This document shows, in pieces, positions 1 to 43,991 of a stretch of DNA of 64,000 nt. Source of the stretch: Pseudomonadota bacterium (GTDB taxonomy: Bacteria; Pseudomonadota; Alphaproteobacteria; Rhizobiales; MH13); NCBI GenBank assembly GCA_039024915.1, contig JBCCPK010000003.1:1-64000 (forward strand). The letters run 5' to 3'. The position numbers and the translations under genes are program-made. Under the pieces are notes generated by a model. The model made no database searches and was not told the DNA's origin. It saw only the letters and a list, made by a program, of their open reading frames with translations. How positions within the stretch are numbered: position 1 is the stretch's first letter; each line of letters opens with the position of its first letter.

Positions 1-182
1 ATCTCTTTGATCCGCTGTTCCAGTGGGGCCTGATCGGGTCGGCGAGACGTAAAGCGGTAGGTCTTGGGGTCAAACCTGATCACCGAGCAGGCCCGGCGAA
101 TGGAGACAGCCCAATCCGCGCGCATCTCATCGACCAGCGTCCTCTTCCGAGCAGGCCTCAGAGCTTTCGCTTGGTGATGCCA
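1..182 (-). mobile_element. IS3-family transposase OrfB fragment, cut by the window edge
   Basis: Read on the minus strand, this stretch gives the N-terminal part of an IS3-type OrfB: a basic segment (ALRPARKRTLVDEM), then VSIRRACSVI and a YRFTSRRPDQAPLEQRI-like segment, the usual start of IS3-family integrases of the IS407/IS2 type. The DDE catalytic core would lie beyond position 1. The open frame continues upstream to about position 209 without resembling an OrfA, so the upstream half of the element seems lost and this is probably a remnant. It cannot be told from the window whether the rest of OrfB is intact. Family assignment is from recalled motif similarity only. Confidence 0.7.
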
Positions 183-36107: not shown

Positions 36108-36140
36108 CAGATTGATAGTACGGATTTGGGATCAATACTT

Positions 36141-37322
36141 ATGGTGCGATTTACCTCTAGGGAAGAGGCAAAAGATCAGTCGGATTCCAAAGCGCTCAAT
36201 ACGCTTCGATCGATCGTTTCGGTGAGCATGCAGCGGTTGCCGCTCGTCGCAAAAATCCTCAAGTTCCTTTTTAAGCGAACACTGGGCGCGTACCGAAACG
36301 AGAAGACGATCAGGTGCATCCAACCCTTCTACAACATGGAAATCTACACTGACGGTCGAGCGCTCACTTGCATATCCACAATCATGAAGCAGCCGATTGG
36401 AAACATAAATCAGGCTGGGATCTTAGAGACCTTCAACTCAATCGAAGCCAAAGCTGTCCGCGCATCGATCTATGACGGAACGTACGATTACTGTTGCGAG
36501 ACATGCCCGGTCTTTAACGAAGATCGTTTCCATCAGATCGACAGCGATTTCATAGACACATGGGAGTTTTTGAGGCCCGATCAGCGTCGCGCCATTCAAT
36601 CGAAGTCACTTCATGTACCGCTGGGACCGTCTAAAATCGCGGACAATGTAAATGTCGCGTGTCCGATCGGGTGCGAGTTCTGTTTTTTGACAGTTGAAAA
36701 GATGAACAACGGCACAGCTGCCAAAATGACAAATTTCGTGACAAGTAACCTACGCAATTTGAAGCTGGTGCATTTCTGCGGAGGTGAACCCTTTCTCCAG
36801 AAAACCACGCGCCGGATATTGCGTGAGGCGTCTCAGGTCGACGACCCGCCGAAGTTCGAATTCGTCACCAGCCTCTCCTATCTCGATGACGATCTGCGTC
36901 AGCGCATCACCGCCTCGAAGCTTCATTATGTCAACGTCTCGGTCAACGCGGCGACCCGGATGACCTACCAGAAGACGATTGCTCGCGGAAACTGGGAGCG
37001 CCTTATCGAAAACCTTGACTTCATCGAAGGCGCGCGCGGCAGCGGGCAACTGATGATGTCGTTCGTCGTCACTCGCAGCAATTTCCATGAAATCGAGCAA
37101 TTTGCGCATTTCTGTCAGAGGTGGTCCCCCGCCTCGATACATTACCACACACTGAAACCGGGAACCGAGAACTACGAAGACCTGCAACTGAACCGGGAAC
37201 AGGCAAAATCCGTTCTCGATCAACTCAAGGCGCCGATCTTCACACAGCTTGGCCATAAAGCGCATGTGGTTGTGCTGCGGGACATGTGCCGCGCAATCGC
37301 CGGACAAGCTGCTGCCGCCTGA
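36141..37322 (+). CDS. radical SAM protein with N-terminal twitch/SPASM-like domain
   Basis: A 393-residue protein. The radical SAM core carries CPIGCEFC (Cys174, Cys178, Cys181, the CX3CX2C cluster ligands) and the GGEP motif at 214-217 (HFCGGEPFLQ). Before the core, residues about 55-125 form an auxiliary iron-sulfur domain of SPASM/twitch type: IRCIQPFYNMEIYTDGRALTC (Cys59, Cys77), an RASI segment, and YDYCCETCPVF (Cys118, Cys119, Cys122). In most SPASM enzymes this domain follows the core; here it precedes it, as in N-twitch radical SAM proteins. The family's substrate is unknown. ATG 36141 is chosen over an upstream TTG. It stands alone, in AT-rich DNA. Confidence 0.88.
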   Translation: MVRFTSREEAKDQSDSKALNTLRSIVSVSMQRLPLVAKILKFLFKRTLGAYRNEKTIRCIQPFYNMEIYTDGRALTCISTIMKQPIGNINQAGILETFNSIEAKAVRASIYDGTYDYCCETCPVFNEDRFHQIDSDFIDTWEFLRPDQRRAIQSKSLHVPLGPSKIADNVNVACPIGCEFCFLTVEKMNNGTAAKMTNFVTSNLRNLKLVHFCGGEPFLQKTTRRILREASQVDDPPKFEFVTSLSYLDDDLRQRITASKLHYVNVSVNAATRMTYQKTIARGNWERLIENLDFIEGARGSGQLMMSFVVTRSNFHEIEQFAHFCQRWSPASIHYHTLKPGTENYEDLQLNREQAKSVLDQLKAPIFTQLGHKAHVVVLRDMCRAIAGQAAAA

Positions 37323-39321: not shown

Positions 39322-40824
39322 ATGGACACCCTGACCACAACGACCACACCGCAGATTCCCAAGCTCGATATGCAGTATCGCACTTTGCCGGATGCGCTTC
39401 ATGCGACTGTCGAACCCTACGGCGCGTCGTCGCCCAAACTGGTCGCCTACAATGGCGATCTCGGGCGTTCGTTGGGATTTGATATTTCGTTTGCGGACGA
39501 GCCCGCAGCGGCGGCGACCTTTTTCGCGGGCAACCACCGGCCCGCTCCACAACCGGCTCTCGCTATGGCCTATGCGGGCCATCAGTTCGGTGGATTTGTG
39601 CCCAGGCTGGGCGATGGCCGGGCTCATCTGCTTGGGGAAGCGGTGACGGAAAGCGGCGAACGCTTTGACATCCAACTCAAAGGCTCCGGGCAAACGCCCT
39701 TCTCGCGACAAGGCGATGGGCGTGCTGCTCTCGGTCCGGTGCTGCGCGAATATGTTGTCGCCGAGGCCATGGCGGCGCTTGGAATACCAACAAGCCGAGC
39801 TTTAGCTGCAGTCCTTACGGGCGATATGGTGCTTCGCGAAGGCGTTCAGCCGGGCGCGATCCTGACGCGGGTTGCCGCGAGCCATTTGCGGGTTGGCACT
39901 TTCGAGTATGCCGCACGCCTTTCCGATCCAAACGTGCTCGACGCACTGGTTCAATTCGCGCTCCAGCGCCATCCGGTTGAGACTGACGCCGATATCGTCC
40001 GCGACGGGAGGCCCGGCTTGACCCTGCTACAAGCCGTTATCGCCCGTCAGGCGAAACTCATCGCTCAATGGATGGGCGTCGGTTTCATTCACGGTGTCAT
40101 GAACACCGACAACTGCACGATCTCTGGCGAGACCATCGATTATGGGCCATGCGCGTTTATGGATGGGTACAATCCGGCTCAGGTCTACAGCTCCATCGAC
40201 CATATGGGCCGCTACGCATTTGCCAATCAGCCGGGCATTGCGCACTGGAACATGGCTGTACTTGCTCAAGCACTACTGCGGGCCATTGATCCGAACGAGG
40301 AAACGGCGGTGAGCCTTGCGCAGGAAGCGGTCAACCACTTCCCCGCGCAGTTTGAGGCGGCCTACCGAACCGTCATGCGGACAAAACTGGCACTGCCAGG
40401 CACGGACGACGGGGACGTACAGCTGATCGACGACCTGCTGGGGCTTATGGCGGAAAGTGAAGCTGATTTCACTGGAACTTTTCGCGCGTTGGGTGCGGCA
40501 ATAGAAGACGGTGCACCACTCGTTCAGTTCCTGGGCGCAGATGCATCGAGCTGGTTGCAGCGCTGGCGCGATCGGCTGGGCAATATAGAAACTGCGGCGA
40601 TCAGAGTGCAGCTTAACGCGGTCAATCCGGCGATTATGCCACGAAACCATCGGGTCGAAGCCATGATTGCGGCCGCCTATGACGGGGATTTTGAGCCTTT
40701 CAGCGCCATGGTCGAAGCGCTCAAGTCTCCTTACGCGGAACCAGCCAGTTCTGGACAGGCCGCCTTACTCGCCACACCGCCCGCCGCCGACGAAGTCGTT
40801 CACGCGACCTTTTGCGGAACCTGA
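39322..40824 (+). CDS. selO: SelO protein AMPylator (YdiU/UPF0061)
   Basis: A 500-residue SelO, of normal length. The pseudokinase-fold motifs are visible: LKGSGQTPFSRQGDGRAALG (the nucleotide-binding loop), YAGHQFGGFVPRLGDGRAHL, and the active-site segment GVMNTDNCTISGETIDYGPCAFMD with the metal-binding Asn and Asp. SelO transfers AMP, rather than phosphate, to protein Ser/Thr/Tyr and is linked to redox stress. The C-terminus ends FCGT, retaining the terminal cysteine that is selenocysteine in animals. ATG 39322 is chosen because GGAGAG lies before it. It is followed by a membrane pseudokinase gene on the same strand. Confidence 0.95.
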   Translation: MDTLTTTTTPQIPKLDMQYRTLPDALHATVEPYGASSPKLVAYNGDLGRSLGFDISFADEPAAAATFFAGNHRPAPQPALAMAYAGHQFGGFVPRLGDGRAHLLGEAVTESGERFDIQLKGSGQTPFSRQGDGRAALGPVLREYVVAEAMAALGIPTSRALAAVLTGDMVLREGVQPGAILTRVAASHLRVGTFEYAARLSDPNVLDALVQFALQRHPVETDADIVRDGRPGLTLLQAVIARQAKLIAQWMGVGFIHGVMNTDNCTISGETIDYGPCAFMDGYNPAQVYSSIDHMGRYAFANQPGIAHWNMAVLAQALLRAIDPNEETAVSLAQEAVNHFPAQFEAAYRTVMRTKLALPGTDDGDVQLIDDLLGLMAESEADFTGTFRALGAAIEDGAPLVQFLGADASSWLQRWRDRLGNIETAAIRVQLNAVNPAIMPRNHRVEAMIAAAYDGDFEPFSAMVEALKSPYAEPASSGQAALLATPPAADEVVHATFCGT

Positions 40825-40962: not shown

Positions 40963-42366
40963 ATGCGCGAAGCGGACGGCAGGCTTTCGATCGGTGATCG
41001 TGCCGACGGGGTTGAGGTCACCGGTTCGTTGACACTCACCGGTCTGGGTTCGGCGTATTCTGGGATCGACAGCACCAAAGGCGACCAACCCGTCTCGATA
41101 GTCCTGCTTCAGGAAAGTCCTCCAGAAACTGGAGTTCGAGGCGAACTTCCACTTCTCAACGTCGATCGGATCATTCGTTACGGCACGGGTCCGGCAGCCG
41201 TTTTCAAGGGCGATCTGCACGGCGTCACCGTTGATCACTGGATACGACAGGCGGCGCCTGCTCCACTTGGTGAGTTCGCGGCAGGCATGCTGCCAATCGT
41301 CGAAGCGCTGCAAACCATGCATCGTGGGGGTTCTGCCCATGGTTATCTCAACGCCCACCACATCATACTCTTGACCACTGGTGAGTGGCGGCTTCTTCCT
41401 CCGCTCAAAATTGCCGATGCAGATTGGCAGCACGCATTTCAAGGTGCTCAAGCGCCGGAAGCACTTGGCGGCGAGGAACCGGGTCCTGCCGCTGACGTCT
41501 TCAGCGTCGGTTGCCTTATCTACCGGGCGATCAGCGGCTGTGTCCCATCGCCCGCGGCAGAAAGGCTCGATGCCCAGGCACGCCACGATAATGACCCTCT
41601 GACGGCGCTCGGCAGCTCCGAAGCTTCGGACGGCGCACTACGATCGGTCACCGACCGCGCGCTACGGCTTCATCCCGCCGTGCGCCCTCAATCTCTGGCT
41701 GATTTTCGCGAGGCATTGGCCGCACTTGCGCAGGACGCTCCAAAACCGATGGAGCAAACTGTGAAACGCAGTGCATCCGTTCCACCACCCTTACCACAAG
41801 GCTCCGGCACTGCCTCGCAGCGCGGACCCTGGGGCGAGAAGGAGCGGGCATCACCCTCAGGCGCAGTGCCGCCAATCCGCAAACGTACCTCGACCATCGG
41901 CGCACAGCCAGCAGCTACGGCGAAGCCAAAGCGCTCGATGGGCAAAGCCACCGTTATCGGCTTCATCGTTGCGCTGGCAGTCGCCTGGGTCATCAGCACT
42001 GGAGGCTTGGGGCTCATTGATGATCAACCAGGCAATCTTACACCGCCTACTCCGCAACCTACGCAGGATCGTCAGATAGAGCAGGTACGGACACCGCCGG
42101 CCAATCAGCCGTCTAACACCTTGCCGAACGATCCACTCGACCCACCAACTGCACGCAAAGGCCCATCAAGCACGCAAAGGCCGGTTGAGGATGACGCCGT
42201 CGATCTGGACATTTCGGATGGCGTACTCGAGAGCCTGTGTTCGAGCACGATAACCTTCCAGCAGGCCCGCGACGATGGCCCAGCGGCCTTGCGTCGTTAC
42301 ATCGAGCGATGCACACCGGTAGACGGTGAATTCGTCGATGAAGCGTTCGAGGCGCTCGACAATTAA
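40963..42366 (+). CDS. transmembrane protein kinase-like protein (probable pseudokinase)
   Basis: A 467-residue protein. Residues about 10-260 look like a Ser/Thr kinase fold: the HRD region reads SAHGYLNAHHIILL (catalytic Asp absent), QAPEALGG matches the APE motif and ADVFSVGCLIYRAISG matches the DVWSLG helix. The VAIK lysine and DFG Asp are not visible (SIVLLQE and KIADADW), so it is probably inactive as a kinase. A Pro/Ser-rich linker (265-328) leads to one membrane helix (329-352) and a C-terminal domain of about 110 residues, probably periplasmic, with two cysteines. Start ATG 40963. It follows selO by 138 bp. Whether it is a receptor-like regulator is speculation. Confidence 0.7.
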   Translation: MREADGRLSIGDRADGVEVTGSLTLTGLGSAYSGIDSTKGDQPVSIVLLQESPPETGVRGELPLLNVDRIIRYGTGPAAVFKGDLHGVTVDHWIRQAAPAPLGEFAAGMLPIVEALQTMHRGGSAHGYLNAHHIILLTTGEWRLLPPLKIADADWQHAFQGAQAPEALGGEEPGPAADVFSVGCLIYRAISGCVPSPAAERLDAQARHDNDPLTALGSSEASDGALRSVTDRALRLHPAVRPQSLADFREALAALAQDAPKPMEQTVKRSASVPPPLPQGSGTASQRGPWGEKERASPSGAVPPIRKRTSTIGAQPAATAKPKRSMGKATVIGFIVALAVAWVISTGGLGLIDDQPGNLTPPTPQPTQDRQIEQVRTPPANQPSNTLPNDPLDPPTARKGPSSTQRPVEDDAVDLDISDGVLESLCSSTITFQQARDDGPAALRRYIERCTPVDGEFVDEAFEALDN

Positions 42367-42430: not shown

Positions 42431-43285
42431 ATGTCACGCATTGCCTATGTAAATGGCGAGTTCGTTCCGCTCGAAGAAGCCAAGATTTCGGTTCTCGATC
42501 GGGGTTTTCTGTTTGCGGACGGCGTTTACGAGGTGACGGCCGTCATCGACGGCAAGCTGGTCGACAACGCCCCACACCTCGCCCGGCTCGAGCGGTCGCT
42601 GTCGGAACTGGATATGGCGCATCCCCTACCACTTAACGAACTGACCGACCTGCAGCTGGAGCTTGCACGACGCAACGGGCTCAAGGAGGGCGGTATCTAT
42701 CTGCAAATCACGCGCGGTGCGGCCGAACGCGATTTCAGCTTCCCCAAAGATGCCAAGCCGAGCCTTGTGATGTTCACGCAGGAGCGCGCGTTGGTAAACG
42801 ATCCACGTGCAGAAAAAGGGATCAAGGTGATCACCACACCTGATTTGCGCTGGAAGCGGCGCGATATCAAATCGGTATCGCTGCTTGCGCAAACCATGGC
42901 GAAGGAAGAGGCCGTGCGGGCGGGTGCCGGGGAAGCAATCATGGTTGAAGAAGGCACCGTGACGGAGGGTTCTTCCTCCACCGCATGGATTGTCAAAGAC
43001 GGAAAACTGATCACCCGCAACCTGTCAAATGCCGTCTTGCCCGGCGTGACGCGCCTGTCGGTGATGCAATTGTGCAACGAACTGGGATTATCGGTCGAGG
43101 AACGGACGTACGATGTCGATGAACTTTATCAGGCCGATGAAATGTTCATCACCGCAGCGACCACACTGGTTATGCCGGTTGTCGAGATCGACGACAGGGT
43201 GATGTCGAACGGTGCACCGGGGCCCATCGCAAGCCGGTTGCGCGATTTATATATCGAAACTGCTCGCCAAACAGCCACAGGCTGA
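42431..43285 (+). CDS. dat: D-amino-acid aminotransferase (fold-type IV)
   Basis: A 284-residue fold-type IV PLP enzyme of D-alanine aminotransferase type. The N-terminus YVNGEFVPLEEAKISVLDRGFLFADGVYEV is characteristic, the PLP lysine is Lys147 in WKRRDIKSVSLLAQ, and VEEGTVTEGSSSTAWIV forms the phosphate-binding loop. RPPxC-like features of branched-chain aminotransferases are absent, supporting the Dat assignment. It interconverts D-amino acids and 2-oxo acids, producing D-Glu or D-Ala for wall synthesis or catabolism. GGAG precedes ATG 42431. It is a single-gene unit between the pseudokinase and DUF4864 genes. Confidence 0.9.
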   Translation: MSRIAYVNGEFVPLEEAKISVLDRGFLFADGVYEVTAVIDGKLVDNAPHLARLERSLSELDMAHPLPLNELTDLQLELARRNGLKEGGIYLQITRGAAERDFSFPKDAKPSLVMFTQERALVNDPRAEKGIKVITTPDLRWKRRDIKSVSLLAQTMAKEEAVRAGAGEAIMVEEGTVTEGSSSTAWIVKDGKLITRNLSNAVLPGVTRLSVMQLCNELGLSVEERTYDVDELYQADEMFITAATTLVMPVVEIDDRVMSNGAPGPIASRLRDLYIETARQTATG

Positions 43286-43412
43286 CCGTCCGTCCCAGAC
43301 GCTCTTCAATCTGATGGCCACAATTCGCGCATCTTTTGCCCAAAGCTTACACTTGGAGATAGCAATTCCTGCGCTACCCTCCTGATTGTTAACCGCAATT
43401 GGAGGGTTCCCC

Positions 43413-43991
43413 ATGTCGTTTCTTACGCCGCAGTCCCAGTCCAGCGAGTTCAATCAGCGTCCCCTTTCTCACCAGAACCATCGCGCTCACGCACTTGTGC
43501 GCTCAACACGCGACGCCCAGACGGTGGCTTTTGCCAAGCTGACGATGCTCATGCTTGCGGCTTTCGTCATGATGGCTCTCACTCTGGCGCTGTTTACGCA
43601 TTCAGCGCGTGCAGACGAGGCGCCAGCTGCAACGGTCTCGAGTGACCTGGAAGAGCGCATGCATTCAATCATTGCGGCACAAATTGACGCGTTCCGCGCC
43701 GAGGATGCAGAGACGGCGTACTCTTACGCCTCTCCGGCAATCAAGCGCAGATTTTCCAACGCTCAGCGCTTCGCATCCATGGTTGAGCGCGGCTACCCCG
43801 CCGTCTACAGCGCTCAGAGCTATGAGTTCATCGAAAGCGCTCTAACCCCGCGGGGGCCGGCTCAGATGATTGAGATCGTCGCGCCCGACGGGCAGATTTG
43901 GGGCGGTATCTACACCTTCTCGGAAGATGATGAAGGCAGTCTTTCGATTTCCGGCGTTTATCTGCGCCGGCAAAACGCTCAGCAGATCTAG
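43413..43991 (+). CDS. DUF4864 exported protein
   Basis: A 192-residue protein. Residues about 42-61 are one hydrophobic segment ending HSARA, either a long signal peptide or anchor. The remainder matches DUF4864: IIAAQIDAFRAEDAETAYSYASPAIKRRF, FASMVERGYPAVY and IWGGIYTF. The function of the domain is unknown; it has a SnoaL/NTF2-like pattern and occurs widely in alphaproteobacteria. ATG 43413 is chosen for the GGAGGG upstream. The gene is convergent with tgt. Confidence 0.85.
   Translation: MSFLTPQSQSSEFNQRPLSHQNHRAHALVRSTRDAQTVAFAKLTMLMLAAFVMMALTLALFTHSARADEAPAATVSSDLEERMHSIIAAQIDAFRAEDAETAYSYASPAIKRRFSNAQRFASMVERGYPAVYSAQSYEFIESALTPRGPAQMIEIVAPDGQIWGGIYTFSEDDEGSLSISGVYLRRQNAQQI

Follow-up and report, generated by a model that had tools for sequence, protein, structure and literature searches.

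The gene that follows SelO in the window (the 64,000-nucleotide stretch of contig JBCCPK010000003.1 that was analysed here) encodes a membrane-anchored protein which, by its sequence profiles, belongs to the bacterial Ser/Thr kinase (PF00069) superfamily, with homology extending across the whole kinase domain, and which is probably a catalytically dead adaptor descended from a transmembrane receptor Ser/Thr kinase. It would act as a non-catalytic membrane docking protein, and we regard it as a genus-wide pseudokinase of receptor type that has a probable active counterpart. The features on which the following analysis draws are collected in Table 1.

Table 1. Coordinates of the pseudokinase, its parts and its neighbours in the window
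Feature	Position	Strand	Basis
SelO, with HGVMNTDN and DYG motifs	39322..40824	+	PF02696, E 5.5e-103
Pseudokinase gene, 467 aa, ATG start	40963..42366	+	ORF listing; PF00069; profile-profile alignment
Kinase-like domain, ~residues 8-257	40984..41733	+	hhalign 99.9%, E 8.1e-32
VAIK equivalent, VSIV; beta-3 lysine lost	41092..41103	+	hand placement in gappy block
HRDxxxxN equivalent, HGYLNAHH; His126 kept, Asp and Asn lost	41338..41361	+	alignment
DFG equivalent, PPL	41398..41406	+	alignment
APE motif, residues 164-166, invariant 4/4	41452..41460	+	genus alignment
Asp178, invariant 4/4	41494..41496	+	genus alignment
TSTIG, cytoplasmic juxtamembrane motif, residues 309-313, invariant 4/4	41887..41901	+	genus alignment
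Transmembrane helix, core residues 329-347	41947..42003	+	hydropathy maximum 2.24 (scan window starting at 331)
RKGP, outer-linker motif, residues 398-401, invariant 4/4	42154..42165	+	genus alignment
C-terminal mini-domain, residues 416-467, invariant C426 and C450	42208..42363	+	tail profile
D-amino-acid transaminase (DAAT)	42431..43285	+	NF005209, 395.8 bits (cut-off 320); PF01063
DUF4864 protein, next same-strand gene, start codon unsure	43386..43991	+	PF16156, E 6.2e-28

Comparison of a profile of three orthologues with the active kinases of the order using hhalign gave an alignment of 263 columns at 99.9% (E 8.1e-32), against 1.1% over 25 columns in a single control with shuffled columns; the active set, chosen by its HRD and DFG motifs and excluding the sister-genus kinase L022 discussed below, is a friendly one for this comparison, as many of its loci had originally been fetched as matches to the pseudokinase profile. 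Taken singly, the protein is matched by PF00069 over residues 92-205 (E 5.9e-6) with 26.3 bits, short of its 31.7-bit cut-off, and the same Pfam search, carried to E 1, recovered besides this a weak Kdo match only, and no match to the SelO family PF02696. Five kinase-domain families of NCBIfam match it, all far under their cut-offs, and two antiporter models fall on its transmembrane helix. The best match among PDB sequences is PknA (E 3.1e-6), and the best 60 of the 113 PDB matches are by name kinases or kinase constructs with a single exception, SAKe6BC (E 0.023). AlphaFold2 models from two-row alignments reached a pLDDT of 35.2 for the whole protein of the window and of 42.9 (pTM 0.47) for the kinase-like domain of another copy, L017. 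The order of strands and helices in such a low-confidence model suits a kinase; the 50 Foldseek matches listed for the L017 model (pLDDT 42.9) are all kinases, at TM scores of only ~0.2, and its best VIA-align Z is 4.6 over 80 residues. With structural matches of this strength, it is the sequence profiles that carry the assignment of the kinase fold.

From its N-terminus the protein consists of the kinase-like domain, a cytoplasmic linker, the transmembrane helix, an outer linker and a two-cysteine mini-domain. Hydropathy rises above 1.6 in a single peak (residues 325-353), and the stretch KPKRSMGK on the N-terminal side of the helix suggests that the N-terminus is in the cytoplasm. Of the helix and periplasmic domain that the first-pass annotation had described, the helix is thus confirmed, and the outer part turns out to be a long linker capped by a mini-domain of ~50 residues rather than a large periplasmic domain. 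The two invariant cysteines of this mini-domain would form a disulphide. Each linker harbors one short conserved motif: TSTIG in the cytoplasmic linker is a run of five invariant columns, as was reached in 347 of 20000 column permutations, and RKGP in the outer linker comprises all four of the invariant positions among its 68, which are adjacent.

The motifs that define an active Ser/Thr kinase are degraded throughout the genus. The other three copies carry VTLI, VTLT and VLAI at the VAIK position, HGR, HGR and HGH at the HRD position, and APW, GPW and PGA at the DFG position, so that by alignment the VAIK lysine, the HRD aspartate and the DFG aspartate are gone from all four. The earlier description of a kinase homologue that lacks these three residues and retains APE is therefore borne out, by the profile alignment and by the motifs alike, and extends to every genus genome. 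His126, APE and Asp178 (the helix-F aspartate) are invariant in the four sequences and Arg241 in the three that cover its position; these residues have roles in the kinase fold. The segment between the DFG position and APE counts 21 residues, versus 30 in the active kinase L022. Kinase-fold proteins without the canonical residues can be transferases, as the available part of PMC12599244 describes, and an unusual chemistry or a retained capacity to bind nucleotide, as in SelO and SidJ, has accordingly to be considered. However, the four genus sequences share no lysine anywhere in the kinase domain, only His-Gly is invariant in the catalytic loop, with no invariant aspartate, asparagine or glutamate, and the DFG position holds the four different tripeptides given above. 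Hence, the altered chemistry once suggested for this protein is very unlikely.

Each of the four genus genomes carries the dead form: as full-length genes with intact frames in the genome of the window (G000), G002 and G003, and as two contig-end pieces in G001. At an E-value of 0.001, 14 of 61 relatives match the pseudokinase, with the strong matches confined to these four genomes. A profile search gave matches in 121 of 297 genomes of the order; those within the genus score at E 4e-32 to 9e-269, the next best (3e-22) is the active-type kinase L022 of the sister-genus genome G004, and no other genome among the 297 has a match of genus strength. A scan of genome contigs, which may leave out records near the window's own, confirmed one locus, L017, out of 164 pattern matches. 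Its source is a metagenome-assembled genome named Cohaesibacteraceae, a family of Hyphomicrobiales, and since all three of its proteins, SelO, pseudokinase and DAAT, resemble their G002 counterparts, the two are probably the same genome. Matches to the linker and transmembrane region in G010 and G060 are HflK-like proteins by eye and probably due to chance.

A kinase stripped of its motifs might simply be a receptor kinase left without a job, whose gene is decaying on its way to being lost. Its 36% identity to the G003 copy is the lowest among 23 collinear ORFs (54-93% for the others), which makes it the fastest evolving of them, and the window copy has a 9-residue gap near helix C. Between G002 and G003 its dN/dS is 0.373/1.497 = 0.25 by NG86 (0.22 by YN00), twice the 0.125 of SelO, with DAAT at 0.09 (both NG86), at a dS of 1.5 to 1.8 that is near or past saturation, other pairs being more saturated or giving no value. 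A ratio of 0.25 nonetheless indicates that the protein is constrained, though less than its neighbours. Three copies are complete with intact frames, and 77 positions are invariant in all four sequences, among them both cysteines and the two short motifs, whose linkers vary elsewhere. Decay of the gene is thus unlikely, and a dead adaptor that is still under constraint is the reading we favor.

The pseudokinase gene lies on the same strand as SelO and DAAT, 138 nucleotides downstream of the former in the window (91-138 nucleotides in the genus) and at most 64 nucleotides upstream of the latter in all four genomes (64 nucleotides in the window). Terminator-like sites were found in neither of the two gaps, by a scan that found fewer sites than its shuffles. 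It is likely that the pseudokinase and DAAT are co-transcribed as operon partners. Adjacency to SelO is seen in G000, G002 and G003, and in G001, where SelO and the start of the gene are on one contig and its end and DAAT on another, the join is inferred; the arrangement is therefore not peculiar to one strain.

This adjacency had been taken as suggesting that SelO and the pseudokinase form a signalling pair. In such a pair SelO might AMPylate the pseudokinase, for instance at TSTIG, or be brought to the membrane by it. The SelO of the window keeps its two motifs, which match the E. coli SelO row in Table 1 of PMC12599244 (in the part of that paper available), and the SelO family is described as AMPylating serine, threonine and tyrosine (PMC12409994, likewise in part). 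Further, SelO is a remaining candidate writer for TSTIG in G000 and G001, as these genomes gave no match to an FHA domain or a resident canonical kinase. Yet from the MFS gene to the end of the window 23 matched ORFs keep the order of their counterparts in G003, the only genome used for this comparison, and since the adjacency falls within this run, background synteny explains it with no need for special selection. Outside the genus neither the pseudokinase nor DAAT was found beside SelO in any of 35 genomes (mostly with ~1.5 kb examined on each side), where 30 of the SelO loci were the best-scoring ones of the search, and so not a random sample, and mostly belong to a SelO type just 33-38% like that of the window. 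SelO is present in 152 of the 297 genomes of the order, 148 of which have no pseudokinase match of genus strength. In the sister genus SelO is followed by a non-kinase gene of opposite orientation, and L022 is on a different contig. Thus, conservation of the pair across Rhizobiales fails in the genomes sampled, and a functional SelO-pseudokinase pair is improbable. The available part of the ProFaNA study of SelO neighbourhoods (PMC10364804) names no such partner, and neither the pair nor this protein is described in the titles and abstract openings searched, a coverage that excludes most subscription papers. Just outside the end of the collinear run, positions 36126-37322 of the window encode a radical-SAM-like protein with a CxxxCxxC motif recognized by eye.

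The best match to the pseudokinases outside the genus, L022, retains HRDISPDN, LIDFG and AIK and is matched by PF00069 at E 5.6e-38. It resembles them in combining a kinase domain with a hydrophobic segment and a two-cysteine mini-domain, and in lying on a contig with DAAT, DUF4864 and Tgt; it differs from them in its intact motifs, in the FHA genes that adjoin it, in lacking both TSTIG and RKGP, and in that SelO is not seen beside it. A profile made from the tails of the four pseudokinases alone matched, among 1308 ORFs of the fetched loci, only themselves and L022 (E 1.2e-9; next 0.21), and in a sample of 385 genomes of the class, which may not include G001-G004, the genome of the window was the sole match for the mini-domain. 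On contig C168 of G004 the genes run Tgt(+), DUF4864(-), DAAT(-), two further genes(-), response regulator(+), histidine kinase(+), L022(-), FHA(+) and FHA(+), with Tgt, DUF4864 and DAAT named by match to the window, the FHA genes by domain search, and the regulator and histidine kinase by eye. The DAAT on this contig matches at 70% over 142 residues, and the gene order places L022 upstream of it in the same orientation, ~4 kb away. Also near L022 is a 686-aa protein (L142:8691-10751, G004:C168) with an N-terminal FHA domain and, by eye, a nucleotide-binding oxidoreductase-like domain, which has a homologue at 47% in G003.

Two phylogenetic trees were built, with long-branch warnings on both. 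In the first, the pseudokinases and L022 group with two more long-branched kinases, L048 and L053 (86/37). In the second, which was made after the first had been seen and from which L028, L048, L053 and the copy L044 were also dropped, the pseudokinases and L022 fall on one side of a branch with 91/82, not starred; both trees omit the G001 fragment and the copies L105 and L013. Grouping the pseudokinases with L016, the other kinase of the genus, gave a p-AU of 0.048 in the second tree. L016 is an active kinase, which in G003 is carried by an FHA-TauE-like cluster that is homologous to the surroundings of L022 and is ~450 kb from the pseudokinase. As G004 is 58% complete, a pseudokinase orthologue may have gone unseen there, and L022 may be a paralogue. 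Taken together, the pseudokinase probably arose from a functional receptor kinase of a type still present in the sister genus, and most likely catalysis was lost in place, with the receptor kinase staying near the DAAT locus.

If the protein is such a dead adaptor, the outer domain and linker may sense or bind something periplasmic, the kinase fold would be a docking surface rather than an enzyme, and TSTIG just inside the membrane could be a contact or modification site for signalling, with an output probably tied to the D-amino-acid or cell-wall gene that likely shares its transcript. TSTIG would be a fitting site for a phospho-mark to be read by an FHA domain, as in MviN (PMC6180346, PMC12599244). 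Neither G000 nor G001, however, gave a match to the FHA domain, and phosphothreonine-FHA signalling at TSTIG was for this reason set back. PF00069 has no match in G001, where a very diverged kinase could escape, as it missed the pseudokinase pieces of that genome too. In G000 its single match beyond the pseudokinase is in a mobile-looking island and was not counted as resident, since it sits among transposase, PP2C-like, SIR2-like and integrase genes (by eye). That row (L092:1521-4908, G000:C2, ~348.0-351.4 kb), with PP2C-like, SIR2-like and Ser/Thr kinase genes in succession from transposase to integrase, looks like a defence island, its names being by eye except for the kinase. In G002 a gene divergent from a partial active-type kinase gene (L093:2-1411, G002:C26) encodes what is by eye a trypsin-like serine protease, carrying an FHA domain at its C-terminus. 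One can imagine a dead receptor rewired to SelO, where AMPylation of TSTIG takes the place of phosphorylation at the membrane, on one transcript with the D-amino-acid enzyme, in a genus where the resident Ser/Thr kinase and FHA machinery seems to be gone from two of the four genomes; we give this scenario a very slender chance, and continue with the dead adaptor outlined above.

Several known families come close to this protein. According to the available parts of PMC12599244 and PMC6180346, the ActPs3 pseudokinases, such as the kinase-like domain of the mycobacterial MviN/MurJ, have likewise lost the three motifs, have a deletion in the activation loop and are associated with a transmembrane region. 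PknB phosphorylates the tail of MviN, to which FhaA is recruited. The combination of three degraded motifs with a shortened activation loop is found here too (21 versus 30 residues). However, ActPs3 are mainly actinobacterial and the MviN domain is attached to what is proposed to be a lipid II flippase, whereas G000 and G001 gave no match to an FHA domain that could read such a phospho-mark. The GLW pseudokinases, in the available part of PMC12599244, are proteobacterial, have lost their motifs and have a transmembrane helix after the kinase domain, as here, but are characterized by GLW at the HRD position, where the genus has HGY, HGR or HGH; at the VAIK stretch, where the GLW pseudokinases carry LLLL/W, the four copies read VSIVLL, VTLIWL, VTLTRL and VLAILV. 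EssB/YukC, as presented in the same part, are membrane-anchored non-catalytic scaffolds with all motifs degraded, and in this they resemble the present protein, differing from it as components of the Firmicute type VII secretion system. SelO itself is a kinase-fold protein without the canonical catalytic aspartate, but unlike the pseudokinase it preserves a motif set of its own, HGVMNTDN and DYG. Alongside these systems, an active-type counterpart that shares the tail and lies close to the same genes in the sister genus would provide a before-and-after case of a receptor kinase losing catalysis, for which the two short motifs and the cysteine pair supply testable features.
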